A DNA stretch of 64,000 bases from Sulfuritalea hydrogenivorans sk43H (GTDB lineage Bacteria > Pseudomonadota > Gammaproteobacteria > Burkholderiales > Rhodocyclaceae), in assembly GCF_000828635.1 (NCBI RefSeq), contig NZ_AP012547.1, forward strand, positions 1,922,001 to 1,986,000, read 5' to 3'. Position numbers and translations under genes: made by a program. Below are positions 4,566 through 63,545 of the stretch, piece after piece. The notes under the pieces are model-generated. The model saw only the letters and a list, made by a program, of their open reading frames with translations, made no database searches and was not told the DNA's origin. Position 1 is the stretch's first letter. Each line of letters starts with the position of its first letter.

Positions 4566-5114
4566 TCAAATAACGCCGAGAGAGTGCGCACGCACAAGAA
4601 AATCGGCTTCTGCCGCATTCGGTGAAAGCGGTACGGAGGGAAGGCCGCTCGCCAGTTCCCGTGACGGTATCAACTGGTTTTGGATATTTGGATTCGCCGG
4701 CATGTAAGCACGTAGTTCTAAAGCCAGCATGTCGGTGTCGGCCTGATGCACCTCGTCTGGCATTGGCCACGGAAGAGAGAATCTCTCAGCGATCTTTTGC
4801 TGGATGGCATCTTCCAGTCTCACGTATTCTTGAAGCTGGCGCTTTACTGGTCGAGGAATGTCCACCATGTAGGCTTCGCTGGCATCATGCAGAAGAGCCC
4901 ACTTCGCGAGCATTCTGTCCTCCGGATTGCACTGGCGGATCAAATCAGAAGTCAAAACGCTATGTTCAGCCACACTGTAGAAGTGACGGCAGTGCCCACC
5001 GAACCGACAGAGCTTGGAAAGTGCAGCAGCAATGTCCTGAAGGTCAATCAGTTCCGGGTCAGGATTGAGGACATCGAATAACTTGCCGCTGTAGGTCAGA
5101 ATGGACGATGTCAT
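4566..5114 (-). CDS. HD-domain phosphohydrolase (YfbR-like)
   Basis: The 182-residue protein has the HD-superfamily metal-binding set: RFGGHCRHFYSVAEHSV (about residues 37-52), LLHDASEAYM with the HD doublet (about 89-98), and a later Asp in HQADTDML. This spacing matches YfbR-type 5'-deoxynucleotidases and phage relatives that dephosphorylate dNMPs. The start codon overlaps the stop of the ADP-ribosylhydrolase fusion gene (ATGA), so the two are translationally coupled. Family precedent suggests nucleotide hydrolysis; the actual substrate, possibly an ADP-ribose-derived nucleotide given the neighbours, is inference. Confidence 0.85.
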   Translation of the reverse strand: MTSSILTYSGKLFDVLNPDPELIDLQDIAAALSKLCRFGGHCRHFYSVAEHSVLTSDLIRQCNPEDRMLAKWALLHDASEAYMVDIPRPVKRQLQEYVRLEDAIQQKIAERFSLPWPMPDEVHQADTDMLALELRAYMPANPNIQNQLIPSRELASGLPSVPLSPNAAEADFLVRAHSLGVI

Positions 5115-6892
5115 TGCTGTGCGCTTTCAATAAGGTCGATGCATCTCGCCTTTCCTGCTTTCGTACATAGCCGGTCCGGATCGGGCATGATGTCAATTCG
5201 AATCAGGTCGAGCCTGTCGGCATCCCAACATGTAGCAACCGTCGGATCCCCATGGCCTGACTCATGTGTGTGGCCCTTGCATGCAATTTTCAGGAGTTCA
5301 AGTTCGCATGCATCGAGGTTGATCAAGGCACCTTGTAGTTGGGTCACCAGTTCAGCCGCCCGGCTTCCGTGAAAAGGGTCGCGGCCATCGTTCTCCCGAC
5401 AACTGTCGTGCAAGAAAGCAAATAGCTCAACTACGGTAGTGTTTGCCCCGGTGGACTTGGCCAGTGCCAGGCCATTGGCGCGAACGCGGGACCAATGTTT
5501 GACGCCATGGATTCCATTCCAGTCCAAACGGTAGTGCCCCTTGAGGAACTCAAGCAGATCAGAAGTGATTACGCGGTCGGATCCAGCATCACAGGCGTCG
5601 CCCCGAATGTGATGTTGAAATAAGTCGCGCAAGCTTTCTTGTAGAACGACGAATCGAATTTCCTCGATGTAATGAAGCCGGGGACGCATCTGACGGGCCG
5701 TTTCAACAAGAATCGGCACGGCCTCCTCAGGAGGGTATGCATATACGCCCATCGAGATTGCCGGAATGGCAAGGCGTTTCAGTTTTTCCCGGTCTGCGAC
5801 GATGAGGGTATTTCTCATGGCAAGGGCCAGGTGATGAGCCGGTTCAGGATCAAACAGATACTTGGGGCCTCGGGTGTGAATCACTTGATTCGCGCGTAAT
5901 CCAAAAGCCGGGGTGGCAACTGCATTGGCCAATGCCAGTGGCGCGTGGGCTCGACAATGCTCCTCGAGTTCTTTGCCTGCCGCTCGGTGGATAGCACCGC
6001 AAACCCCGGATCCTTCCCTGAGATTCTCGTTGGCAGAATTGACGAGGCCATCGCAATCGATCTGCTTGGTGATATCCCCAAGTACGACGGTGATGTCTGC
6101 TGGCCGTGAGACCTTTGCCCGTTGTTCAGCGATTTCATAGAGCCTGGTGAGTGCGGCTTGTATGTCTTCCGGCAATTTCAGCCAGGCCAGACGAGCCATT
6201 GATTCCGGGATCCCGAAAAGTGCTTCGGCCAGACCTCCGGCAATTGCCGCAATGGTGTCGCTGTCACCACCGATGGAAATCGAATTCCTGATGGCATCTT
6301 CGAAGTTTGTCGCCTCCAGTGCGCAGGTCAAGGCCTGGGGAACCGTATCCAGAGCACGCTCGTTATAGCGATACCAGGGACGAATCTCATCAACCGATTG
6401 ACTTAGGTCGTAACCGAATTGCTTTGTGATGTTTGCTCGGATCTCAGATGCACTCAGCCCTGTCCGCGCCCAATAGATCGCCGCTGCAGTTGCCGCAGCC
6501 CCACGCATACCTTGTGGGTGGTTGTGAGTTACCCCGGTGACGTGATCGGAGAGCCACACGGCTTCCTCAAGGGTTCTTGCCAGGAATCCTGCGGGAGAAA
6601 CCCGCATACCGGCACCATTGCCGTAGCTGTTGTAGGGACCCTCATCATCATCGCCCAACCATTGAGCAAACCGCATTCCCCAACCGCCATTCTCCCAGTA
6701 GCGTCGCCCCCATTCCCGCAGTGCGACAGCCGGATCAATGTGCCGAGTCAATGAATCGGCTACTGCTGCAGTACATACCGTGTCGTCGGTAAAGAAGCAT
6801 CCGGGTTGAAAGAACGGATCGAAGTCCTTTGCCTTGTAGTTGTTGAACTCGTAAACCGAGCCGACGATGTCACCAATGACGGCGCCTAGCAT
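5111..6892 (-). CDS. ADP-ribosylglycohydrolase-macrodomain-HD triple fusion
   Basis: This 593-residue protein joins three domains. Residues 1-255 are a DraG/ARH-type ADP-ribosylglycohydrolase: the metal-binding TDDT is at 35-38 and a second metal motif, GGDSDT, lies near residue 215. Residues about 262-430 are a macrodomain with the ADP-ribose-binding GDIT, NSANENL and GVCGAIHRAAG elements. Residues about 440-593 are an HD domain (GIHGVKHW...LHDSCRENDGRD...FHGSRAAEL). Together they could remove ADP-ribose from a target, bind it and hydrolyse a phosphate. The start overlaps the end of the sirtuin gene by 7 bp and the stop overlaps the next HD gene. All visible catalytic motifs look intact. Confidence 0.88.
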   Translation of the reverse strand: MLGAVIGDIVGSVYEFNNYKAKDFDPFFQPGCFFTDDTVCTAAVADSLTRHIDPAVALREWGRRYWENGGWGMRFAQWLGDDDEGPYNSYGNGAGMRVSPAGFLARTLEEAVWLSDHVTGVTHNHPQGMRGAAATAAAIYWARTGLSASEIRANITKQFGYDLSQSVDEIRPWYRYNERALDTVPQALTCALEATNFEDAIRNSISIGGDSDTIAAIAGGLAEALFGIPESMARLAWLKLPEDIQAALTRLYEIAEQRAKVSRPADITVVLGDITKQIDCDGLVNSANENLREGSGVCGAIHRAAGKELEEHCRAHAPLALANAVATPAFGLRANQVIHTRGPKYLFDPEPAHHLALAMRNTLIVADREKLKRLAIPAISMGVYAYPPEEAVPILVETARQMRPRLHYIEEIRFVVLQESLRDLFQHHIRGDACDAGSDRVITSDLLEFLKGHYRLDWNGIHGVKHWSRVRANGLALAKSTGANTTVVELFAFLHDSCRENDGRDPFHGSRAAELVTQLQGALINLDACELELLKIACKGHTHESGHGDPTVATCWDADRLDLIRIDIMPDPDRLCTKAGKARCIDLIESAQQ

Positions 6893-7749
6893 GACGTTTC
6901 CCCATTGTTCCAGACCACATTGACAAAGGCTGGAAGAATCTCGGCCGCCTTGCCTTGCAGAAAAACATCGGCGTGCGATGAAAGTGATGTCGGCTCGGGA
7001 TTGATCTCGATGATCGTTGCGCCAGCCAACTTGGCCCTGACTGGAATGCTGGCGGCGGGTTGCACTTCCAATGAACTACCGATGCAGATCAGAAGGTCAC
7101 AGGTATCCGCGAGCCGCGTCGCACCGTCAAGGATATCGATGTCCAGGGGCTCACCAAACCAGACGATGTCAGGGCGCAGCAATGCGCCGCACCCCGGGCA
7201 CCGTGGTACTGGCCCGGCTCGGAGTTCGATCGCTGCGAGATCTTCTTTGGATGCATAGGGGTCACATTCATCATAGGTCGCGTATCCATCGCAAATGTGG
7301 CAGATGATCGGACTGGTGTCACCGGCAAACAACTCGTCCGTATCCACAAAGGCCTTCAGCCGGAACAGGCTGCCATGCAATTCCAGAACATTGCGGGTTG
7401 CAGCCCTCTGATGCAGGTTGTCGATGTTCTGAGTAATGACTGTGAGGTCGGCTACACACGCCTGCAGCGTCGACACGGCTTTGTGGCCTGGATTGGGCTC
7501 GGCATTCCGAACGAACTCCGCCCGATGGACATACCAGTCCCACACCAACTGCGGGTTTTTGCGGAAGGCCTCGGTACTGGCGACGTCTTGAGGGTTGAAC
7601 TTCGACCACAAGCCGGTCTGGGCATCACGGAAGGTAGGGATACCGCTTTCAGCAGATATCCCCGCCCCCGTAAACACGACCACCTTCTGGCAATCGTGAA
7701 GTTTCTCGATGAGATCAGATTCAAGCATTGAGTTTCTAGTTTCTACCAT
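6886..7749 (-). CDS. SIR2-family NAD-dependent deacylase (sirtuin)
   Basis: Classic sirtuin motifs are present: GAGISAESGIPTFR (residues 28-41), QNIDNLHQ, catalytic His in LHGS, and a zinc ribbon with C-x-x-C (CHIC) and C-x-x-C (CPGC). Tyr73 and Arg76 (WYVHRAEF) match the Tyr/Arg pair that in CobB and SIRT5 favours acidic acyl groups such as succinyl. The enzyme would use NAD and release nicotinamide and O-acyl-ADP-ribose, which fits the ADP-ribose-processing gene downstream. The start is uncertain: ATG 7749 or ATG 7728, neither with a strong ribosome site. It follows the VWA gene by about 33 bp. Confidence 0.93.
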   Translation of the reverse strand: MVETRNSMLESDLIEKLHDCQKVVVFTGAGISAESGIPTFRDAQTGLWSKFNPQDVASTEAFRKNPQLVWDWYVHRAEFVRNAEPNPGHKAVSTLQACVADLTVITQNIDNLHQRAATRNVLELHGSLFRLKAFVDTDELFAGDTSPIICHICDGYATYDECDPYASKEDLAAIELRAGPVPRCPGCGALLRPDIVWFGEPLDIDILDGATRLADTCDLLICIGSSLEVQPAASIPVRAKLAGATIIEINPEPTSLSSHADVFLQGKAAEILPAFVNVVWNNGETSC

Positions 7750-52506: not shown

Positions 52507-53457
52507 TCACGATTGCTGCAATGCCCGCTTCAGTGACGGCGAAATCTGCCAAACCTGCGACTGCCCGCCAATATATTTCGACACCTTGATGTGGTTGTTA
52601 CTCTCCATAAGGCTCAGTACAAAATCCACGAAGCCGACCGGTCTCTGAATGCGAGACGCCAATTCTTCGTTCTGGCAGACATTCTCGTTGACGAGCAGCG
52701 CAGCAACGCGGGCAACCACGTCGGCGTAATCAGGAACGTATGCCTCCGCGAATTGCTGAAAGCCGAAATCCGTGAGCACAACGTGTGAGAGGGGCGCTCC
52801 AAGCACATAGGAGATTTTGATCAAATATTTCTGCGCGAGAATTTCGAGAGAATCAAGCAACTCTGGCTGAGGAACTTCTTCCAGTGTTTGCTCAGCGCAG
52901 ATCTGATCAAACGTCACGAGCCCATTATTCTGTTCAATTTGCAGTCGAGCTATCTCACGCAAAACCAAATCGTCGACGCGTGTCAATCCGGAAATCAGCG
53001 GCTCCGTACCCGAAAATCGCGCAGGCGGCTTGCCAATGGGGGGCTTGTCGTTGGCATCAAAGATTGCAGACAAGATGCGCTGCAAACTCTGGCTGTAGTC
53101 GTCGAGGCAATCCACCTTCTGCCATACGGTGGATCGGAGACTTTCTGGTACCTCACATCTGTCGATGACGACCGGGATCAGTTTTGTCCCTCGACTGATC
53201 CGATTTACAACAGAAGCGTTCAACTCCTCTCGTACCCATGGCTTTTGAACGCTGGTAGTCGAGAGAACAATGATCACTGCGTGGGCATCTTTCAAGCCTT
53301 CCTCGAAAATCTTGTCCACCAAGCTATCGCCTGGCTTCATTTCCCATTGGTCGAGCCATACGTCGACGCCACTCTCACGCAGTTGTCTTGCGAAACCCAC
53401 TACGAAGCGGTCTTTGTCTTCGCTGGCATGGCTAAGAAATACTTTTGGTGCGGTCAT
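52507..53457 (-). CDS. TIR-domain protein with winged-helix-like C-terminus
   Basis: The 316-residue protein has a TIR domain at about residues 1-135: KVFLSHASEDKDRFV, VDVWLDQWEMKPGDSL and KPWVREELNAS, whose Glu is the expected NADase residue. The rest (about 150-316) looks like two winged-helix units (DDLVLREIARLQIEQNNGLVT and DVVARVAALLVNENVCQNEE). Such domains could sense nucleic acid. It is the last gene of a ten-gene minus-strand operon and begins 35 bp after the previous gene. Confidence 0.87.
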   Translation of the reverse strand: MTAPKVFLSHASEDKDRFVVGFARQLRESGVDVWLDQWEMKPGDSLVDKIFEEGLKDAHAVIIVLSTTSVQKPWVREELNASVVNRISRGTKLIPVVIDRCEVPESLRSTVWQKVDCLDDYSQSLQRILSAIFDANDKPPIGKPPARFSGTEPLISGLTRVDDLVLREIARLQIEQNNGLVTFDQICAEQTLEEVPQPELLDSLEILAQKYLIKISYVLGAPLSHVVLTDFGFQQFAEAYVPDYADVVARVAALLVNENVCQNEELASRIQRPVGFVDFVLSLMESNNHIKVSKYIGGQSQVWQISPSLKRALQQS

Positions 53458-53492
53458 TGGGGAAATCCGAGATCAAAAACGGGCTGAAATGC

Positions 53493-53951
53493 TCACTGAC
53501 CGATTCTGCTTTTCAGGCTCTGGTGGAAATTATCGGCGGAGGTCACGGTTCGGGCTGCAGTGCTCTCGCTGAAAGCAACAACCTTGTCACGCTGATAGAG
53601 ATCGATGAATTGATCCAGATGTGCCTTGGTCTTCAAAACAGGCCACTTCTTCAGGTAATCCGGCAAATTCGTCGCCTCAAGCGTGTAAGTGCTGATCCTC
53701 CTGTCCTGATCAGTCGCTACTCCGATTTCAAAGGGCACCCACCAGGAGGAAATCGTGTTGGCAGAGGTGACGGCCATCAGATGGGTACATTGACGGACTC
53801 GCGTCACAATCACAGAGGTAATGTCATCGGTTGACTGCAATTGCGGATCAAGGACATCAACATACGACTGAACACCACGCGCACGCAGGTAACTGGATAT
53901 CTCAAGTGCTGCTGGCTTATCAACGCTTTTGTGTGAAATGAATACGGGCAC
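53493..53951 (-). CDS. Short TIR-domain protein, GTG start
   Basis: The 152-residue protein is almost entirely one TIR domain: PVFISHKSVDKPAALEIS, VQSYVDVLDPQLQSTDDI and SSWWVPFEIGVATDQDRRI with the catalytic-type Glu. The start is GTG 53951 with AAAGGACC upstream. It could be a nucleotide-signal synthase or a NADase, as TIR proteins in Thoeris and related systems are. It is 46 bp downstream of a gene of unknown function in the same operon. Confidence 0.85.
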   Translation of the reverse strand: MPVFISHKSVDKPAALEISSYLRARGVQSYVDVLDPQLQSTDDITSVIVTRVRQCTHLMAVTSANTISSWWVPFEIGVATDQDRRISTYTLEATNLPDYLKKWPVLKTKAHLDQFIDLYQRDKVVAFSESTAARTVTSADNFHQSLKSRIGQ

Positions 53952-53997
53952 TTATGGTCCTTTATTTGTTGATCGTCTGAACGGCTGATTCCTGCCG

Positions 53998-54561
53998 TCA
54001 AGCCAACTTAGTTACGTCGACCAGCTTGTACATGCTCACCAGCTCATCTTGAATGGCACGCATGATCGCTCGCACGTCGCTCCACTGAGAAATCATGTCG
54101 TTTAGTTTCGGATATGCCTTTTGTCGCTCGAAAGGGGGAAGCGTCTTGTCGCTAGTGTTCTCCCACCAGAAGCGATAATCGGCTTGCCACGTCTCAAGAA
54201 ATGGCCGAAGCACATCACGCATTGCACGATGAATCAACGCACCAAGGTGGTTTTCGATGCCAGCACCAGTGCGAACGCCGAGGAGTTTTCTCGGCTTCAC
54301 ATAGGTTGAGCAGACAGGAAACTGGCGCATAATTTTTCTTGCCTCGCCGAAAAACGTGTGCAATGAAGTAAGGCTTTCGGCATAGACCTCCCCTGAGAAA
54401 TCCGTGCAGTCGCGATCTTTGGATTTTCCGGTAACAGCGATTCTTGTCGCCAGTTCGGTATACAGTTCCCATGCACACTGTCGGTCACTTTCCTCAAAGT
54501 CGGCTCCCAGCTTGAGAAACCCAATATCTATCGAAAAGTTGCCCTTCTTCATTACGGCCAT
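53998..54561 (-). CDS. Unknown protein within the TIR gene group, 187 aa
   Basis: I do not recognise this protein. It is helical and charged, with GALIHRAMRDVLRPFLETWQADYRFWWEN in the middle and a C-terminal LNDMISQWSDVRAIMRAIQDEL. No membrane or signal segment is seen. GGAG lies 9 bp before the start, and it begins 9 bp after the TIR-like gene upstream. Being enclosed by TIR genes on both sides, it is probably a functional part of that module. Confidence 0.7.
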   Translation of the reverse strand: MAVMKKGNFSIDIGFLKLGADFEESDRQCAWELYTELATRIAVTGKSKDRDCTDFSGEVYAESLTSLHTFFGEARKIMRQFPVCSTYVKPRKLLGVRTGAGIENHLGALIHRAMRDVLRPFLETWQADYRFWWENTSDKTLPPFERQKAYPKLNDMISQWSDVRAIMRAIQDELVSMYKLVDVTKLA

Positions 54562-54570
54562 ATCTATCTC

Positions 54571-55119
54571 CTATCCGTTTCGTTGACGAAGCGGCCGTGA
54601 GTTGTCGATCTGCCACTGCGGCTTCGCAATGGCGGCGTTGATCAATTGGGTTAATCCTTGCGCCGTAAGTCCATTCCAGTGCGACCAGACTGCGTACCCG
54701 CTCTTGTGGTTATCAAGAAAGCGGTCGGGTACAACAATCTCCCCGCCCGAATTTTTTGCATGGGAGGGCAGTACGATACCAATGAGCCCGTGACATTTTT
54801 CTAGGGTCGCCTTGATTTCCCAGTCGAGATACTTGCGCTCATGACTCTGTGCGCCGATCAGAACAATAGTGCACGAGGTGCCGTTGATGTGCCGCTCTCG
54901 AATTTGACGCATCACATACTCGGTGTTGTCACTCTGGATAAGGCGCTCCAAAGAGTTATCTCGAATTGCTTCATACTGGTCGTGGAAAAAACGTGAAAAC
55001 TCGTCGTAATAAACTTGATCGTTCCCGTGGTGATAACTGACGAACACCTTCCGCCGTGTTGGTTTCATCAGCGCAGCCAACAGGCCGTTCATATTCTGCT
55101 CGACGTAAAAACCACCCAT
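54571..55119 (-). CDS. ThsB-like TIR-superfamily protein
   Basis: From ATG 55119 the product is 182 residues. It reads RRKVFVSYHHGNDQVYYDEFSRFF, then CTIVLIGAQSHERKYLDWEIKATLEKCHGLIGIVLP, which is the TIR-like fold of Thoeris ThsB (DUF1863 type), with Glu in DWEIKA. ThsB makes an NAD-derived signal that activates ThsA. No ThsA homologue is in this operon. It starts 1 bp after the stop of the TIR-TM gene; a TTG start at 55137 would overlap it. Confidence 0.85.
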   Translation of the reverse strand: MGGFYVEQNMNGLLAALMKPTRRKVFVSYHHGNDQVYYDEFSRFFHDQYEAIRDNSLERLIQSDNTEYVMRQIRERHINGTSCTIVLIGAQSHERKYLDWEIKATLEKCHGLIGIVLPSHAKNSGGEIVVPDRFLDNHKSGYAVWSHWNGLTAQGLTQLINAAIAKPQWQIDNSRPLRQRNG

Positions 55120-55120
55120 G

Positions 55121-55576
55121 TCATTTCCCGAAGGCAACCAATCCAGCGAAGATCAATCCAAGAATGAGCAGTCCTTTCTGCTTCTCGGCCTTGATGGCCT
55201 CCGCGACACGCCCAACGGCAACCATTGCCTCTTCCTGCCCACTACCAGCCAGATTCACAGCCTGGTATTGCTTCATCCATCCCGGTAGCGAATCAGGCGG
55301 CTGATCCCAGATGATCGGCACCAGTTTTTTGTTGCCCGCGACAGCCGCCCCCATTTCTTGCAGCACCCACGGCGACGCACAAGCAGCGCGGCTCGCGAGG
55401 CAAAGAACCCAAGTGGATCCGCGCAGGTTGTCCATGATGTGAGGCATCCAACGCTCGCCCGGCGGCATCGAAACCGAGGCCAAATACACACTCAGCCCCT
55501 CCTGCGTGAGGTGACGGTGAAGAAATTCTGCAAGGGGCAAGTCCGTTGCCGCGTGAGATATGAACACATCAGCCAT
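55121..55576 (-). CDS. TIR-domain protein with C-terminal membrane helix
   Basis: From ATG 55576, with GGAGGC upstream, the product is 151 residues. A TIR domain ([52 protein letters not shown] with the Glu) is followed by a short linker and one membrane helix at the end ([16 protein letters not shown]). This would put the TIR domain on the inner face of the membrane. It overlaps the hsdR stop by 8 bp, which ties the TIR genes to the type I restriction operon. Confidence 0.87.
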
Positions 55577-58500
55577 TGACGCCTCCGCTACCAGGTTTCG
55601 GCATGCTCCACGTTGACGACAATGCCTCGGCTTGCTGCAGTACCGTTTGCACGGCCGCGTCCTGCAGATCAGGCGGGTAGCCATACTTGCGCAGAATGCG
55701 TTTCACCAGAACCCGCATCCGCGCGCGGGCAGAATCACGATGCGCCCAATCCACCGATACGTTCTCGCGCAGACTGACCAACAACTCGTGTGCGATGAGT
55801 TTCAGTTTGTCGTCACCCATCATTTGAATCGCACTCTCGTTCTCGGCCAGCGCGTCGTAGAAAGCTATCTCATCCTCGGACAAGCCTTGCTCTTCACCCC
55901 GCTGGCGAGCTGCCCGAATATCCTTGGCGAGATCAATCAACTCCTGCAAGACCTCAGCGGTGGTGATCGCATTGGCGTGATACCGCGCGACCGCATCTTC
56001 CAAGCGCTCTGAGAAAGCCTTGGTCTGCACGACGTTGGCTTTGCTGCGGGATCGGATGCCGTCGTTGATCAATTTCCGCAACGCTTCGAGCGCGAGGTTC
56101 TTGCGCTCCATCTGCTGAACTTCGGCCAAGAACTCGTCTGACAAGATCGAGATGTCCGGGCTCTTAATCCCGGCGGCAGCGAGGATGTCGACAATCTCGG
56201 TGGAAACTACAGCACGACTCACGATCTGCTGGATTGCCATTTCGCGCTCTTGCTGAGTTACGCCCGACCCGGTACTGCTCTTCACCAGCGCCGCGCGAAT
56301 CGCCTGGAAGAAGCCCACTTCCTCTCGGATTTCGCGGGCCTCGTCGGATGCCGATGCAAGGGAGAACGCTTTGGACAGCGCCAGTACGGCATCCTGATAG
56401 CGGCGATGTGCGTCCTTCTTTCCTTCCTTTGTTTTCTCTTTCGCCGCCACCTTTTGCTGCATGTCGAGAATCCACTCGATTGCACCAGCCATCATTGCCA
56501 AGCGTTCTTGAGGTGTTCCGCCCATCGCTGAGGCGTAGTCGAAGCCGTGGTACATGTCCCGCACGACTTCGTACTTTTCCATCAGCACGGCGATGGCCTG
56601 TGACTCGTCGACGCCGGTGTTCTCCTGGTCGTTCTTCGAATACTGCTGAAGCGCAGATTTCAGGTTCTGGGCGATACCGATGTAGTCGACGATCAATCCA
56701 GCAGGCTTGTCGCGGAACACACGATTCACTCGCGCAATCGCCTGCATCAAGCCGTGCCCCTGCATCGGCTTGTCCACGTACATCGTGTGCATGCAGGGCG
56801 CATCGAATCCGGTAAGCCACATATCTCGCACGATCACCAACTTGAGCGGGTCTTTGGCATCGCGTGCGCGCTTGGCCAGCAAATCGCGGCGGGCTTTATT
56901 GCCGATGTGCTGTTGCCAGTCTTCGGGGTCGCTGGCAGCGCCCGTCATCACAATCTTGACCGCCCCCGCGTTGTCATCGGCACTGTGCCAGTTCGGACGG
57001 AGCTTCACGATTTCGTCATACAGCTTCACGCAGATGCGACGGCTCATGCACACCACCATCGCCTTTCCGTCCAGCGCGGCAACGCGATCCTCGAAGTGGG
57101 TGACCATGTCCTGCGCCACCAGCGCGAGGCGCTTATCGCTGCCCACCAAGGCTTCCACCGTCGACCATTTTCGTTTGAAGCGTTCCTGTTCAACCTCTGG
57201 ATCGTCCTCTGTGAGTTCGTTGACCTCGGCATCGATCTTCGGTTTTTCGTCCTCATCAAGCTCAATGCGAGCGAGCCGCGACTCGTAGTAGATCGGCACT
57301 GTCGCGCCGTCCTCGACTGCGCGGCTGATGTCGTAAACGTCGATGTAATTGCCGAACACCGCCGGGGTATTCACATCGTCGGCCTCAATTGGCGTGCCGG
57401 TAAAACCAATGAACGACGCGTTGGGCAGCGCGTCGCGCAAGTACTTGGCGAACCCGTAGGAAATTTCACCCGTTTTGGCATCCACCTTGGCACGAAAGCC
57501 ATATTGACTGCGGTGCGCTTCATCAGCGATTACGACCACATTGCGACGCTCAGTCAGCGCCTGACTTGTCTCGCCAAATTTTTGCAAGGTTGTAAAAATT
57601 ACGCCACCAGATGCACGCGCCAAAAGCTTCTGTAAGTCTTCGCGGCTGTCAGCCTGTACCGGTGTTTGCCGAATCAGGTCGCGGCACATCGAGAAGGTGG
57701 TGAAAAGCTGGTCGTCGAGGTCATTGCGGTCGGTTAGCACTACGAGCGTTGGATTGGCCATCGCTGGATGCTTGACCAGTTGCCCGGCATAGAACGCCAT
57801 CAGCAGGCTTTTTCCTGAGCCTTGGGTGTGCCAGATCACGCCGACACGCTGGTTGCCGCCTGGGGCGGACGCCGTTACGGTACTGTTAACAGCGTGCTGA
57901 ACCGCGTGAAATTGGTGATAGCCCGCGATGATCTTGGCCAAGCCCGATCCCGTCTCACCGAAGACCGTAAAGTGACACAACATGTCGAGCAAGCGGCGCT
58001 GCTCGAAAACGCCTTCAATTAATGTCGAGAGTTCGGGCGCACCTTTCGGTGCAACGTCTTTGCCGTCGGTCGTGCGCCAAGGCATGAACCGCTCCAGATC
58101 AGCGGACAGCGAGCCGACCCGGGCAGTGATCCCATCCGAGGTAACTAGCAGTGCGTTGGTATTGAATAGCGCCGGGATCTGTTTCTTGTAGGTCTGCAGC
58201 TGGTTGAAAGCCCCGACTAGTGTTGCGTTGCCGCTGCCCGGAGCCTTCAGTTCGATCACACCCAGCGGCAGGCCATTAACGAACACCACCACGTCTGGGC
58301 GGCGGTTGTATTGCCCGGCGATCACCACGAACTGGCTAACCACCAACCAATCGTTCTGCTCTGGCCGCTCGAAGTTGATGAGAGAGACCTTGCCGGCTGT
58401 CAGTGTGCCGTCATCGGCGTAGTACTCGACGTCGACGCCCTCGGTCATCAGCTTGTGGATACGGCGGTTTTCTTCGAGGAGCGATGGCAACTCAGACTGC

Positions 58501-58724
58501 ATCACCTTGCGGATTGCATCCTGACGCGCCTCCAGAGGCAGGCCCAAATTGAGCCGCGCGACGGCATTCTCGAATCGCTTCTTCAGCACAACCTCGTCGT
58601 GGCTCTCTCGCTCCGAACGATGGCCATCGGGTCCGATGTCCTCCTCACGCTCAATGCTGTAGTCAAGTGCACGCAGCTGATCCAATAGCGCTTGCTCTAC
58701 GGCGGCCTCCGACAAAAACGCCAT
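55569..58724 (-). CDS. hsdR: HsdR, type I restriction subunit
   Basis: The 1051-residue protein translocates and cuts unmodified DNA. The N-terminal nuclease has [19 protein letters not shown] (about residues 140-158, D...ExK). The helicase motor has [12 protein letters not shown] (about 300-311), [11 protein letters not shown] and [12 protein letters not shown] (about 400), with MWLTGFDAP and [11 protein letters not shown] further on. The start overlaps the stop of the Abi_C gene by one base. All main motifs look intact. Confidence 0.95.
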
Positions 58725-59470
58725 TATTGTTCTCCCTGTTCTCCGACTTGCTCCGCGACTGGCGCCGGTGCCCCGCGCGAAGCGTTCAACGCCTCGACAT
58801 AGGCGTCCCGATCCAGTTGGTAGAGCAACCGACTCGCTTCTACACGCAAGGGCAAGATGTCACCAAAAGGCAGAGTCACGTCCACCGTGAGAAAGCCTTC
58901 CTCATCGATCTCCGCCTGCAATGAAACGTGCGCGTCAATCAGCCCGTGCAGGTGGTCGAAACGCTCATAGGGTTCTCGCGTGCGCACCAAATCCAGTTCA
59001 GCCTCCAAATACGCTTGGTGCAGGAAGGTGACGATGGCGTCGGCCGATAACACCGCCGCGCGGTGGTGATGAGCCGATAGCCGCTGCAGAAACCCTTCCC
59101 GCCCGTGGCTCGCCGTACCCGCGTCATTGCGCAGCTCGCCCAGAGAATCGGTGAGCTTTCTGTGCTGCGACACCAGCTTCTGGAAGCCATTGTGCCTGAT
59201 GTCCCCAAGCTTCAACGCGCGAACAGCCGCACTCATCCACGCACCGAAGGTCGGCAGTGCCTCAGCAGGACGCACAGGGTTTGACGGCGAGTCCAACTCC
59301 TGCAAGATGATCTGGCAAACCACCTCGACGATGGCCTTTGCCGAATCGATGCAGGCGTCGTTGTTTTCGACCAGCGCTCTTTCGAGTTCCTCAAAGGTCT
59401 GTTGCAGCATTGGCGCGTCCCGCCAATACGAACACGCTTCTCGGATGCCAGGGCACCAGTCCAAAGTCAT
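58724..59470 (-). CDS. Abi_C-type abortive infection protein
   Basis: The 248-residue protein has the Abi_C (PF14355-like) pattern: [19 protein letters not shown], a central helix, [22 protein letters not shown] with the LRN...HG signature, and [19 protein letters not shown]. These proteins are common inside type I restriction operons and in abortive infection, with unknown mechanism. It overlaps hsdS by 4 bp (ATGA) and hsdR by 1 bp, so it is firmly part of the operon. Confidence 0.82.
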
Positions 59471-60843
59471 GCTGTGTCTCCTATCACGTGCTCGGCACCC
59501 CCGACACGAGCCTCGCCGGATAACAGCTTGGGAAGAAGCAAGTCGCGCAGCGATGCAAGCGCCGCCGCCTCATGTTTATTTGCCTCAATTGCCCTGATTA
59601 AGGGAGCAACAACACTCGAGAACGCAGTCACTACTTCTGGTTCAGGACGAACTATTGGTGATGCAAACACAGCCTCGGGTCGTACAGCAGGATATGCGCC
59701 ACCATCAGCAAGGTGAGATAAGCGCTCAATATTTTCTAGTGACGTTGCCGCGAAATAGAGGAGCTCGCGGTAGTCGTCATCTTTGGGCCGAAGGACCGCG
59801 AACCCTGTACTCCCGGTCAGACCGTCAGCACTGACGTAGCTGTACGAGCCATTGCCTGGCCTAACTGTACCCACGATGGTGTCGCCAGGTCGAAGAATGC
59901 GCTGTGCTCGGCTGGGTGCATCTGCCCATGCGAATCGCGTCGTTAATTCGATAACACCCCATTTCGTGTTGGACAGATCAACATAGTCGATTTCTGTCGG
60001 AGAATTCTTCTTTGACCACGATTCAGGATTCAAGTCTGCGATGTCGTCGAGACTGCCGTTACTCCAGCCCGCCGGCTTTCCCTCAGCATCAAGTACTTCT
60101 GGGAATAACGCGGCAATTTCTGGAGCCAACCCAGGCGGCAGGCGTCCTTCCATCTTGGCCCGTACCGGACCGAAGTCAATGAACCAGTCCTTAAACAGGG
60201 AGCGCCCCATTGTCTCTAGTTTCTCGTTCATCTTCCGGTTGAGCTCGATCTTTCTATCGAGAGCAAAAAGAACGGCAACAATTGCGTCTTGCTGCTTCCG
60301 GTCAGGAACGCAAATATGGAACGCCTTCAATTCTGGGTAGTAAATCGTTTGATGCGTCGTGCCCGTTGCGTACATGTGGAGGGTATCCCGCTCGGCCAGA
60401 AGGACGTACTTCAGAAAATGGGGATTGAGATCTTCACCACATACCCAATTCGCAAAATCCTGGCTCGTTGCCATCGGCCTACCCATTACTACGACGTAGC
60501 CGACTGATGCCGTGCGTGACAAACAAACCGTACCCTCCGGAAGAATCCGGGCAGACGAGTTGTTGATTCCAAGTTGGTTTGTATGTTGCTCGGTATCCGC
60601 CAGAACACGCCCGTGATTACCAGTGGCATCACGAATGCCAATCCACGGCACGTCGCCACCCCAGTATTCTGGACGAGTACGACTTGGGGTGTGTCCGCTT
60701 TCCAGCCGCGCCAGAAATGAAACAGGCGTCCAACTCCAACCTGGAGGAGTTGGTAAGTCTGGTTTTCCGACCGACAGTGCGAAACGGCCCGGAATTACTG
60801 CCGTGGTCGCATCCCTTCCACCGGTCGTAGTCATTCGCGCCAT
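59467..60843 (-). CDS. hsdS: HsdS, type I specificity subunit
   Basis: From ATG 60843, which overlaps the hsdM stop (TGATG), the product is 458 residues. It has two target-recognition domains separated by conserved helices: the first ends near ELNRKMNEKLETMGRSLFKDWF, which is the central coiled segment, and the second ends with AIEANKHEAAALASLRDLLLPKLLSG. It sets the sequence recognised by the methylase and nuclease. A reading from 60912 adds 23 residues overlapping hsdM. Confidence 0.93.
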   Translation of the reverse strand: MARMTTTGGRDATTAVIPGRFALSVGKPDLPTPPGWSWTPVSFLARLESGHTPSRTRPEYWGGDVPWIGIRDATGNHGRVLADTEQHTNQLGINNSSARILPEGTVCLSRTASVGYVVVMGRPMATSQDFANWVCGEDLNPHFLKYVLLAERDTLHMYATGTTHQTIYYPELKAFHICVPDRKQQDAIVAVLFALDRKIELNRKMNEKLETMGRSLFKDWFIDFGPVRAKMEGRLPPGLAPEIAALFPEVLDAEGKPAGWSNGSLDDIADLNPESWSKKNSPTEIDYVDLSNTKWGVIELTTRFAWADAPSRAQRILRPGDTIVGTVRPGNGSYSYVSADGLTGSTGFAVLRPKDDDYRELLYFAATSLENIERLSHLADGGAYPAVRPEAVFASPIVRPEPEVVTAFSSVVAPLIRAIEANKHEAAALASLRDLLLPKLLSGEARVGGAEHVIGDTA

Positions 60844-62390
60844 CAGACCACGCTCACCAATTTGAGGTTGTTGCGAATTTCGGCAGATAACATTTCTGCC
60901 TCCCGGAAACACATTTCAACTTCCTGTTGAAGCTCCCCAAACTTTTCAGTGAAGTCCCTGCCGTCGCCCTCGACTTCTTCAGCGCCGACATAACGACCCG
61001 GCGTGAGGACGTGCCCTTGCTTCCTGATTTCCTCCGCCGTAGCCGTCCGGCAAAATCCTGCGATATCGCGGTAGTCACCCGTATTTCCCTCTCCACGCCA
61101 TGCGTGATAGGTGTCGGCGATACGTTGAATGTCTGCATCTGATAGCTCGCGTCGTGTGCGATCAACGAGCATTCCCAGTTTTCGCGCGTCAATGAACAGT
61201 ACCTCACCACGGCGATCACGCCAACCGTTTCCCGGATTCTTATTGCGAGCCAGGAACCACAAGCATGCGGGAATCTGAGTCGAGTAGAAGAGCTGTCCGG
61301 GCAGGGCAACCATGCAATCCACGATCCCCTTTTCGACCATTTCACGGCGAATATCACCCTCGCCAGATTGAGTAGAGGACATTGACCCGTTGGCCAGCAC
61401 TACGCCTGCGGTGCCATTCGGCGCAAGGTGATAAACAATGTGCTGCAACCACGCATAGTTGGCATTGCCAACCGGGGGGACGCCGAATTTCCAGCGAACA
61501 TCCTCCCGCAGCCGGTCTCCACCCCAATCGGAGATGTTGAACGGCGGATTGGCGAGGATGAAGTCGGCCTTGAGATCGCGCAGCTCGTCCTTGTGGAAGC
61601 TGCCCTCGTTGTTCCAGCGAATGTCGGAGTCGATGCCACGTACCGCGAGGTTCATCTTGGCTAGCCGCCACGTCACGTAATTAGATTCCTGCCCGTAGAT
61701 GGCGATGTCACCAATGCGGCCGCCGTGCTCCTGCACGAATTTCTCGGACTGCACGAACATCCCGCCCGAGCCGCAGCACGGGTCATAGATGCGGCCCTGG
61801 TAAGGTTCCAGCATTTCTACGAGGACACGCACAACAGAACGCGGCGTATAGAACTCGCCGCCCCGCTTGCCTTCGGCACCTGCGAACTGGCCGAGGAAGT
61901 ATTCGTAGACGCGGCCGAGGATGTCGCGAGAAGCGTGTCCTTCTTCACTGAGAGCAATCCCGGAAATCAGGTCGATCAGCTCACCGAGCATTACCTTGTT
62001 GAGCGCAGGCCGGGCATAGTCCTTGGACAGCACGCCTTTGAGAGACTCGTTGTCCTTCTCGATTGCGCGCATCGCATCGTCGATAAGCGTACCGATGGTG
62101 GGGAGCTTGGCGTTGGCCTGAAGGTGCGACCAGCGAGCGTCCTTCGGTACCCAGAAGACGTTGTCGGCGAGGTATTCGTCTTTATCCTCCGCGGCCTGCG
62201 GGTCTTCGGACAGCAGGGTCTTGTGCTTCGCCTCGAAGGCATCGGAGATGTACTTAAGGAAGATGAGCCCGAGCGCGACGTGCTTGTAGTCGGACGGCTC
62301 CATATTTCCGCGCAGCTTGTCCGCCGCCTTGAACATCTCTGCCTCGAAGCCGAGATTGCCGCCGTTCTTGTTCGTGTCGTTCTGTGCCAT
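60843..62390 (-). CDS. hsdM: HsdM, type I N6-adenine methyltransferase
   Basis: The 515-residue protein has an N-terminal HsdM_N helical domain ([21 protein letters not shown]), AdoMet motif I in [17 protein letters not shown] and the catalytic NPPF in [15 protein letters not shown]. It protects host DNA together with HsdS. It begins 11 bp after the WYL regulator. Family length is typical. Confidence 0.96.
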
Positions 62391-62401
62391 CGTGTTCTGT
62401 C

Positions 62402-63346
62402 CTATTTCCGTATTGTTTTGGCTGCTGGCGCTTGGTACCCCGGTGCGAGCTTTGCGTTCTCTACCCCGTACAAGGCCAGCGGATCGCTGAGCCAGAGGCG
62501 GTACTGTTCTTCTTTCAGGCTGTGGTCAGGTGATGCATCGACGCTCCAGCGCAGCAGCATGTAGCCAGCGACTGCCGCGCGGACACGCATCCGTATCGGG
62601 CCATCCTTCATCCCGTAGTCCATCCTGATGATTTCAGGACGACTCAGACGCGGATGGGGCACGAAATCCAGTTCAACGATGCGCGTCCACTGGATATCGT
62701 TTTCCGGGCGCTCGTTCGCCTTAGGCTCCTCATCGAGCAACGTCGGCGCTTCAATGCGCGTCACGACGAAGTCGCGGAACTCGCCGCTCTTACGATCAAA
62801 GGCCCGAACGTGCCAGCGCAGCCCAGTGTCGACCAAGGCGAAGGGCACGATCACACGCTCGGACTCGCCGCTGCTCATCGAGTGGTAGCGGATGGTCACC
62901 GGACGCTTGGCGTAGATGGCCCGGCAGATCGGGGCCAACACATCCATCCGGGGACTGCTCAGAGCTGTAGGCGATTCGCAGGGTAGCAGTGACTGAGAAT
63001 CGACGTTCACGCCATCGCCAAACCCCAAGGCAATCGCTGACAGCACGCGCTGTGGTGCGTGATCAAACAACGGTACGAAGTCCTTGCCGATGCGATAAAC
63101 CTTGCTGCTGCCGTCGAACTCGATATTTTGCGACGCAATCTCCCGGTACAGAGCGAGGTCTCGTGTTGCACCCGCCGGTGCCACGCCAAAACGACCGCTC
63201 AGATCGGGCCGTCCGATCTCTCCGAAGAAATAGAGCCGAAAATCGATGTAGGCCAGCCGCTCGCGCTGTGCGTGGCTTAGGCCATCAACACGTTGGGGGT
63301 GCATTGTCAAACGTTCCTCATCCACGACAGTCGGCGGGAGAACCAT
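62402..63346 (-). CDS. WYL-domain regulator (BrxR/CapW-like)
   Basis: The protein is 314 residues from ATG 63346; ATG 63304 has a better GAGGAA site and would give 300. A winged helix ([24 protein letters not shown]...[11 protein letters not shown]) is followed by a WYL domain (ITIRYH-type segment [12 protein letters not shown], then [24 protein letters not shown]) and a C-terminal WCX part. BrxR and CapW regulators of this kind repress defence operons until a ligand binds. It is the first gene of the operon and so probably autoregulated. Confidence 0.88.
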
Positions 63347-63360
63347 AATTGGTTTTATGT

Positions 63361-63424
63361 TTGGTCATTTATATCAAGCTGATGTAATCAATATGATGAT
63401 ATTATGCGCTGCAAATTTGACCAA
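63361..63424 (-). promoter_or_regulatory. Operator-like inverted repeat upstream of the WYL gene
   Basis: TTGGTCA (63361-63367) and TGACCAA (63418-63424) form inverted arms 50 bp apart in an AT-rich stretch. Between them lie a TATAAA word (minus strand, 63369-63374 area) and the palindrome AATAT-GATG-ATATT. This is a plausible promoter and binding region for the WYL regulator. Confidence 0.5.
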
Positions 63425-63545
63425 TGCAAGACGTAATTGCGACCGCCTTGGGACTACCTGCCTGAATGAATTTCAGCAGGTAAGCCCGATGCATGTCCGC
63501 AACAAGCTGACCCCGTAAATTTCTACTCACACGGTTAACGAAATA

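Follow-up and report, generated by a model that had tools for sequence, protein, structure and literature searches.

Gene Content and Organization of the Locus

The locus described here lies in a window of 64,000 nucleotides (64 kb) from Sulfuritalea hydrogenivorans sk43H, in which ten co-directional open reading frames (ORFs) on the minus strand occupy positions 52507-63346, according to the ORF list and Pfam. The genes, numbered g1 to g10 from the head of the row, comprise a WYL regulator and a type I restriction-modification operon (g1-g5), followed by four TIR genes and g8, which encodes a helical protein of an unnamed family (g6-g10). The set of hsdM, hsdS and hsdR is complete by Pfam and NCBIfam, and no ThsA is present among the ten proteins. 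It appears, with a chance slightly better than even, that the row is composed of two modules, namely the type I operon and a Thoeris-like TIR cassette lacking ThsA, with g6-g7-g8 as its core. The features are listed in Table 1.

Table 1. Genes of the ten-gene row and the candidate operator, in window coordinates.
Feature	Positions	Strand	Basis
g1, WYL transcriptional regulator, BrxR/CapW family	62402..63346	-	Pfam WYL 2.5e-14; PDB matches
g2, hsdM, type I methyltransferase	60843..62390	-	N6_Mtase 9.6e-109, HsdM_N 1.9e-24
g3, hsdS, specificity subunit	59467..60843	-	Methylase_S 4e-22
g4, Abi_C protein, variable hsdS-hsdR slot	58724..59470	-	PF14355 5.3e-14
g5, hsdR, type I restriction subunit	55569..58724	-	TIGR00348 7.5e-180; T1RH-like_C 1.5e-127; Pfam domains HSDR_N/SWI2_SNF2/T1RH-like_C
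g6, TIR domain with C-terminal membrane helix	55121..55576	-	TIR_2 2.5e-21; hydrophobic tail
g7, ThsB-type TIR protein	54571..55119	-	ThsB_TIR (Pfam) 4.1e-23; profile match to solved ThsB proteins 9b7d and 6lhy
g8, TIR-associated helical protein, unnamed family	53998..54561	-	18-sequence alignment; four-helix model
g9, short TIR protein, optional	53493..53951	-	TIR_2 1.9e-12; PADLOC ThsB 1e-14
g10, TIR with helix-rich C-terminal part, accessory TIR	52507..53457	-	TIR_2 8.1e-28; model, fold search
Candidate operator TAATCAATATGATGA, 15 bp	63385..63399		38 bp upstream of the WYL start codon

The spacing of the row ranges from an 8-bp overlap between hsdR and g6 to a 46-bp gap between g8 and g9. 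At the head, hsdM follows the WYL gene after 11 bp, and overlaps of 1, 4 and 1 bp join hsdM to hsdS, hsdS to the Abi_C gene and the Abi_C gene to hsdR, with the hsdS start placed at ATG 60843 (the longest hsdS ORF begins at GTG 60912). In the distal half, the gaps amount to 1 bp between g6 and g7 (ATG 55119), 9 bp between g7 and g8, and 35 bp between g9 and g10. The original prediction, made from the sequence before this analysis, had described a one-strand row with gaps of at most 46 bp that opens with a WYL regulator and continues with a restriction layer and then four TIR genes, the first of which overlaps hsdR by 8 bp; the ORF list, Pfam matches, gene order and spacing agree with this description. 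A consensus scan for promoters and terminators inside the operon gave no excess over shuffled DNA. In the whole genome, a single contig of 3.8 Mb, PF13676 (TIR_2) has three matches at E <= 0.001, all of them inside the ten-gene operon.

Recurrence of the g6-g7-g8 Core

Intact g7-g8 pairs were found in 12 loci, the window and 11 outside it (L013-L017, L020, L021, L022, L026, L027 and L028), a count that omits L018, L023, L029/L019 and L033, where contig ends or rearrangement leave a partial g8 or no g7. The gap between the two genes is 7-9 bp in the intact loci. Ahead of them, g6 is present in 10 of the 11 outside loci, being partial at the contig end in L020. The remaining two genes are far less constant: g9 occurs once (L015) and g10 four times (L014, L016, L021 and L022), never together. 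The distal five genes had been proposed as one joint system whose synteny could be checked in other genomes; it is the core g6-g7-g8 that recurs, and neither the five-gene nor the ten-gene set was seen elsewhere. The viral contig L023, in which the end of g8 is followed by g9 and g10 in the order of the window, leans toward the five-gene set, and since it is cut before g7 it cannot be judged.

These counts bear on whether restriction and the four TIR proteins act together as a single ten-gene system. The single strand, the tight spacing, the one candidate operator and the g8-g9-g10 order preserved in L023 would all suit such a system. However, g9 and g10 coincide in none of the 11 outside loci, close hsdR relatives are found without the cassette and the cassette without this hsdR, and in L015, where this hsdR and the cassette do meet, a BstXI-like gene rather than an Abi_C gene precedes hsdR. 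A single ten-gene system is accordingly very unlikely.

The neighbors of the core differ between loci. The same hsdR (94.9-96% identity over the part present) stands beside the cassette in L013, L015 and L022, while type I-like systems of other kinds do so in L017 and in L026, L027 and L028, some of their type I genes being named by eye or from weak similarity (hsdM 23-26% in L026-L028). Genes of bacteriophage exclusion (BREX) systems are the neighbors in two loci: in L014, g6 begins 9 bp after brxA of a methylase-SNF2-PglZ-BrxA operon; in L016, brxA and brxB, with brxC identified by eye, are located on the far side of the cassette; in L027, the start of the cassette overlaps a preceding 258-aa gene. 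The core therefore occurs with several modification-based operons. Contig ends hide upstream genes in L013, L015 and L020-L023, and in L020 and L021 the upstream sequence is too short for the neighbor to be judged. In all 10 judged loci, window included, the intact g7-g8 pair adjoins a type I-like or BREX system, these 10 representing six arrangements, several of them near-identical.

The Restriction Operon and Its Exchangeable Positions

Matches to hsdR at E <= 1e-100 were obtained in 86 of 399 genomes of the order, that of the window included. The stretches around the ten relatives of highest identity outside the window (70-96%; the hsdR of G020 is split in the match list) were fetched, and none of the ten contains a TIR gene; two of these contigs, L139 and L143, are short. 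A fixed tie of the TIR genes to hsdMSR finds no support in this result, nor in the presence of the core behind other type I-like systems or beside BREX.

For nine of the ten relatives, the sequence covers the slot between hsdS and hsdR, the exception being L143. An Abi_C gene occupies the slot in five (L139, L141 as a fragment, L142, L144 and L146), accompanied by AAA_13 in L142 (L142:10338-12632), SIR2_2 in L144 (L144:4989-6749) and Mrr_cat in L146. AAA_13 is presumably the Pfam family of PrrC/RloC. Elsewhere the slot holds an AAA_21 gene among others (L148) or genes without identification (L140 and L145), or it is empty (L147). A BstXI-like gene fills it in the Klebsiella plasmid L025 and in the cassette-bearing L015 (83% identical). 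Behind hsdR, a GmrSD-type gene is found in L140 and an AAA_21 gene in L143, with no identification for the others. Since the genes vary both in the hsdS-hsdR slot and behind hsdR, g1-g5 reads as an ordinary type I restriction operon, a backbone with two exchangeable cargo positions.

It is conceivable that the cassette watches the adjacent modification system and fires upon phage antirestriction, with g8 acting as sensor for the complex of the restriction or BREX system. The constant neighborhood of the judged loci is in accordance with this, as is the occurrence of AAA_13, SIR2_2 and AAA_21 genes in the slot of hsdR relatives. Guardian systems of this logic, such as PrrC watching EcoprrI, have been described (PMC12707154, excerpt). 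The window resembles EcoprrI-PrrC in that effector genes are located inside or behind hsd operons, but it bears a TIR cassette instead of an anticodon nuclease, and contact with Hsd proteins is hypothetical. Moreover, the partners are unrelated, comprising different type I kinds and BREX, so that a single sensor surface would need to recognize complexes of very different kinds; by eye or annotation, no restriction system was noted in the sequence read around the g8 relatives and TIR genes of L024, L045, L106 and L107; and defence genes cluster anyway. A watching function of this kind is thus quite unlikely.

A simpler possibility is that the cassette landed behind a restriction operon within a mobile element and came to share its transcript by chance, the two modules remaining independent. 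The cassette is absent from the fetched stretches of all ten close hsdR relatives, and in the viral contigs L021-L023 it also has neighbors that look by eye like lysozyme and tail genes. Furthermore, the window belongs to a conjugative element: MobH relaxase, TraC and TraD score over the NCBIfam cut-off, whereas proteins like TraG and TraB stay below it, and RadC is encoded at the window end. This element bears other genes related to nicotinamide adenine dinucleotide (NAD) and ADP-ribose. Against it, the tight co-directional junctions with unrelated partners (the 8-bp overlap with hsdR, L014 and L027) exceed what chance insertion needs. We give this possibility slightly less than an even chance, and it is compatible with the explanation preferred here for the cassette itself.

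Among IMG/VR contigs, the cassette or g10 adjoins lysozyme-, tail- or other phage-like genes, assigned by eye, in L020-L023, L056 and L057; for this reason, temperate phages may carry the cassette. No match to g8 was obtained in 50,697 deposited phage records, and the link to phages therefore comes solely from the IMG/VR contigs.

The g8 Family

No match to g8 was found in Pfam (E <= 1), PADLOC and NCBIfam (E <= 0.1) or PHROGs (E <= 0.01), and the Pfam matches of its distant relatives all stayed below the cut-off and pointed to different families. The alignment of 18 sequences covers three named phyla, with Pseudomonadota, a cyanobacterium (Calothrix) and Streptomyces, and residues A36, L63, S65, F70, P101 and W106 (first-row numbering) are invariant. 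The AlphaFold2 model consists of four long helices after a low-confidence N-terminal hairpin, at a mean predicted local distance difference test score (pLDDT) of 71.

A TIR gene was detected by profile within 6 kb of the g8-family member, or up to the locus end, in 28 of 36 loci, and annotation adds L042 to give 29; at 70% identity, 17 of 21 g8-family clusters have a TIR gene nearby. The same profiles, for which TIR proteins of these very loci were part of the input, gave zero matches on 229 kb of control DNA. The 36 are the distinct g8-family loci fetched, after removal of short or duplicate loci from one and the same place; outside this set are two Streptomyces plasmid matches (H24 and H25) and another site on the Calothrix plasmid. 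The loci without a TIR gene are L018 and L029, where g8 is rearranged or truncated, L033 and L040, which lie at contig ends, and L044, L051 and L053. In 20 of the 36 loci, g8 is at most 23 bp from a TIR ORF or overlaps it.

Fusions and further partners extend this picture. In L047, a g8-like domain forms the N-terminus of a long protein annotated as a patatin-like phospholipase, and in L048 and L049 similar long proteins (by eye) begin in the same way; TIR genes are close by in all three. Such g8-like domains at the head of patatin-like proteins suit a putative adaptor role for g8. In L050, a g8 relative (51%) stands with a TIR gene and with a gene assigned to SLOG cluster2 by Pfam, a TIR gene and a SLOG cluster2 match stand beside the g8-like domain protein of L049, and in L052 the g8 gene is found with a TIR ORF whose C-terminal part resembles the SLOG protein of L050 (by eye). 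In this respect g8 recalls the effector-associated domains (EADs), which are small, non-enzymatic and mostly helical and which link effectors to sensors, alone or fused (PMC7159879, excerpt): g8 is likewise small and helical and is seen alone or fused. The systems of Kaur et al. 2020, in contrast, are centred on MoxR-vWA and GTPase proteins; the sequence comparison with g8, made via Pfam, gave no family match, and the four-helix fold of g8 is a common one.

The small size, helical nature and close spacing of g8 could also be those of an antitoxin, which would neutralize a TIR NADase (g7 or g6) until infection removes it. However, patatin-like proteins begin with g8-like domains and have separate TIR genes close by, which is unusual for an antitoxin, and two loci (L044 and L053) have g8 relatives with no TIR gene near them. 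A toxin-antitoxin pair is hence unlikely, and the role of adaptor is preferred for g8.

Other observations on the family may be added. Many relatives bear R-P-F-x-x-x-W-H, which we take to be a HEPN-type RNase motif; a HEPN-type RNase was rejected for g8, the His being Gln in the window protein and its close relatives. A g8 relative at L030:9512-10117 has an extra N-terminal hydrophobic helix and adjoins a ThsB-like gene. At L018:8870-10477, an RtcR-like/sigma-54 activator ORF is joined in frame to the C-terminal ~164 residues of g8, a joint that is probably a deletion scar. On the viral contig L041 (3280-9815), caspase-like and hydrolase-like genes (by eye), a g8 relative and the gene for a 415-aa TIR protein lie in a row.

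TIR Proteins of the Cassette

The C-terminal membrane helix predicted for g6 appears as a 17-residue Kyte-Doolittle peak of 2.07-2.48 in 8 of 8 orthologues, which supports the earlier assignment, and F5 and E74 are invariant in 8 sequences. The Phe/Glu pair of g7, F26 and E101, is invariant in 11 aligned sequences, and F7 and E78 of g10 in 7. The g6 profile at E <= 1e-30 matches 3 of 369 genomes of the class, its own included. For g7, 8 matches were obtained at E <= 1e-10 in the 399 genomes of the order, and each of the five at E <= 1e-60 has a g8 gene beside it (5/5). In the AlphaFold2 model of g10 (mean pLDDT 75), the TIR domain is followed by two units that are rich in helices and end in pairs of strands. 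This agrees with the winged helix proposed for g10 earlier, where the label, now a tandem winged helix, is an interpretation read from the order of elements in the model.

Relationship to Thoeris

The cassette resembles Thoeris I and II in that g7 and g9 match ThsB families. In the known layout, one ThsA is combined with one or multiple ThsB genes (PMC11204291, excerpt), whereas among the ten proteins no SIR2, SLOG or ThsA_Macro match was found in Pfam, and g6 and g8 are present instead. The SIR2 and Macro genes at 4566-7749 of the window, ~45 kb away, likewise gave no ThsA_Macro or SLOG match in Pfam. In L056, a g10 relative (84%) lies directly behind a ThsB and ThsA_Macro pair. In TM-macro Thoeris, Tyr replaces Phe in ThsB (PMC11204291, excerpt); the ThsB of L056 has Tyr at this position (TYVC, by eye), and g7 of the window keeps Phe26. 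Two ThsB proteins cooperate on a phage capsid protein in Staphylococcus (PMC12578639, excerpt), and several TIR genes in one operon are consistent with this documented cooperation.

A likeness to type III Thoeris is given by TIR and SLOG-like pairs that accompany g7 or g8 relatives (L154, L155 and L050), the SLOG label in the first two being by eye. On the Pseudomonas veronii plasmid L154, a g7 relative (53%) is located between a g10-like TIR gene (35%) and a TIR and SLOG-like pair, after which a g9-like TIR gene (32%) follows; on the Mesorhizobium plasmid L155, g7-like (46%), TIR and SLOG-like genes stand in a row. Relatives of these TIR/SLOG clusters may have been described by Burroughs et al. 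2015. The type III models of NCBIfam are ThcA NF058525 (184 positions) and ThcB4 NF058526. Against the ThcB4 cut-off of 220 bits, g6 and g10 scored 34.1 and 25.2 bits, weak matches through the TIR domain. ThcA gave no match in the genome of the window at E <= 0.001, a search in which the control genomes were silent as well. The ThcA model is over its cut-off in G454, directly behind a 391-aa TIR gene. An identification of g8 as ThcA, whose model resembles g8 in length, was rejected: the ThcA of G454 is a separate protein, on a contig other than that of its g8, and has no meaningful similarity to the g8 family.

With neither ThsA nor ThcA found, the block is not classed as Thoeris proper, and it probably works like Thoeris. 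From its gene content it can be read as a multi-TIR relative of Thoeris with g6 and g8 in place of the receptor pair. Text searches of open-licence PubMed Central (PMC) literature found no report of the cassette or of ThsA-less ThsB operons, and the phrase "type III Thoeris" gave no paper there. The words TIR and Thoeris do not occur in a BREX survey (PMC12839542) or in the paper on the RptR regulator (PMC12255303).

The WYL Regulator and Its Candidate Operator

The WYL protein g1 matches solved proteins of the BrxR/CapW group over residues 21-305, namely 7qfz (7.6e-83), CapW 9c5g (1.4e-36) and BrxR 7t8k (1.1e-22). Upstream of its gene, the 15-bp candidate operator lies beside a -10-like CATAAT (by eye) and overlaps the second hexamer of a weak promoter match at 63423-63396 given by the scanner. 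The pattern TMATCANNNTGATKA occurs once in the window, with 0.01 occurrences expected by chance, and in 2 of 148 other loci (L025 and L140), in both cases upstream of a WYL orthologue; it was derived from these three sites, so that only its absence from the other 146 loci is independent. BrxR is reported to bind inverted repeats between its own promoter and start, and BrxR relatives beside type I enzymes have been reported as well (PMC9122601, excerpt). The candidate site of g1, an inverted repeat that precedes the start codon and lies near the -10, is similar in this respect; g1 differs from BrxR/CapW in heading a type I operon, where its repressor role is a candidate only. The inverted repeat of pEFER differs from the candidate operator in length and spacing. 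Of the single repressor originally proposed, the operator side is thus backed by one candidate site upstream of the WYL gene, and repression itself keeps the status of a candidate. A 17-nt imperfect inverted repeat at 63445-63492 was dropped as operator in favor of the 15-bp site.

Proposed Mechanism

According to the two-module explanation, the type I operon and the cassette would share one promoter, and the WYL protein would repress the whole unit from a single operator. After derepression, or at constant low expression of the whole unit, infection would be sensed by g7, together with g9 or g10 where these optional extra TIR proteins are present. The Phe/Glu active site predicted for g7 may then convert NAD+ to an ADP-ribose-type signal, and g8, a putative small helical adaptor, would couple g7 to its partner. 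The likeliest output is g6, which could be anchored in the membrane by its tail; through depletion of NAD+ or damage to the membrane it would stop the infected cell, amounting to an anti-phage function. If true, TIR immunity would have a further wiring plan, one that dispenses with the usual Thoeris receptor and connects TIR enzymes with several effectors through a family of small helical adaptors. The g8 family would then be a new marker for finding more such systems, and g6-g8 a short, testable cassette. It is decidedly improbable, in our estimation, that g6-g7-g8 is an undescribed ThsA-less TIR system that is defined by the g8 adaptor family, with its recurring TIR, SLOG and patatin-like partners in several phyla, and was recruited to type I and BREX operons as a guardian firing when phages disable modification or restriction. 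The locus nonetheless provides a concrete case for asking whether suicide modules on restriction or BREX operons guard them.

Several observations weigh against the mechanism proposed. The conserved Glu of g7 is in itself no proof of activity. Full g6-g7-g8 loci are confined to Betaproteobacteria-type genomes, genomes of the window's order and unplaced viral contigs, and they fall into only two clusters at 70% g8 identity. Three weaker g7 relatives are located in other TIR clusters without g8. No TIR gene is near the g8-family members of L044 (4 kb on each side), L051 (at a contig end) and L053. The fold search of the g8 model with Foldseek and VIA-align 2 returned only common four-helix arrangements, none at Foldseek E <= 0.001, an absence that counts as no evidence. 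Finally, g6 is missing from L016 despite an intact g7-g8 pair, and L153 and L152 (the latter at a contig end) carry g6 relatives (43-46%) with neither g7 nor g8; g6 may therefore be a freer part than the model needs.

Other Gene Clusters

ThsB-like TIR genes are grouped with Nmad2 and with nucleotide-metabolism-like or TIR and SLOG-like genes at L031:9343-12848, L103:2607-9632 and L104:6498-12131; Nmad2 is confirmed by Pfam in L031 and L103, and g8 is present in the cluster of L031. Within the window, an HD-domain gene, an ADP_ribosyl_GH and Macro fusion and a SIR2 gene are consecutive on the minus strand at 4566-7749, adjoined by the gene for an 852-aa Sel1-repeat protein, and constitute a second NAD/ADP-ribose group on the same conjugative element as the ten-gene row.

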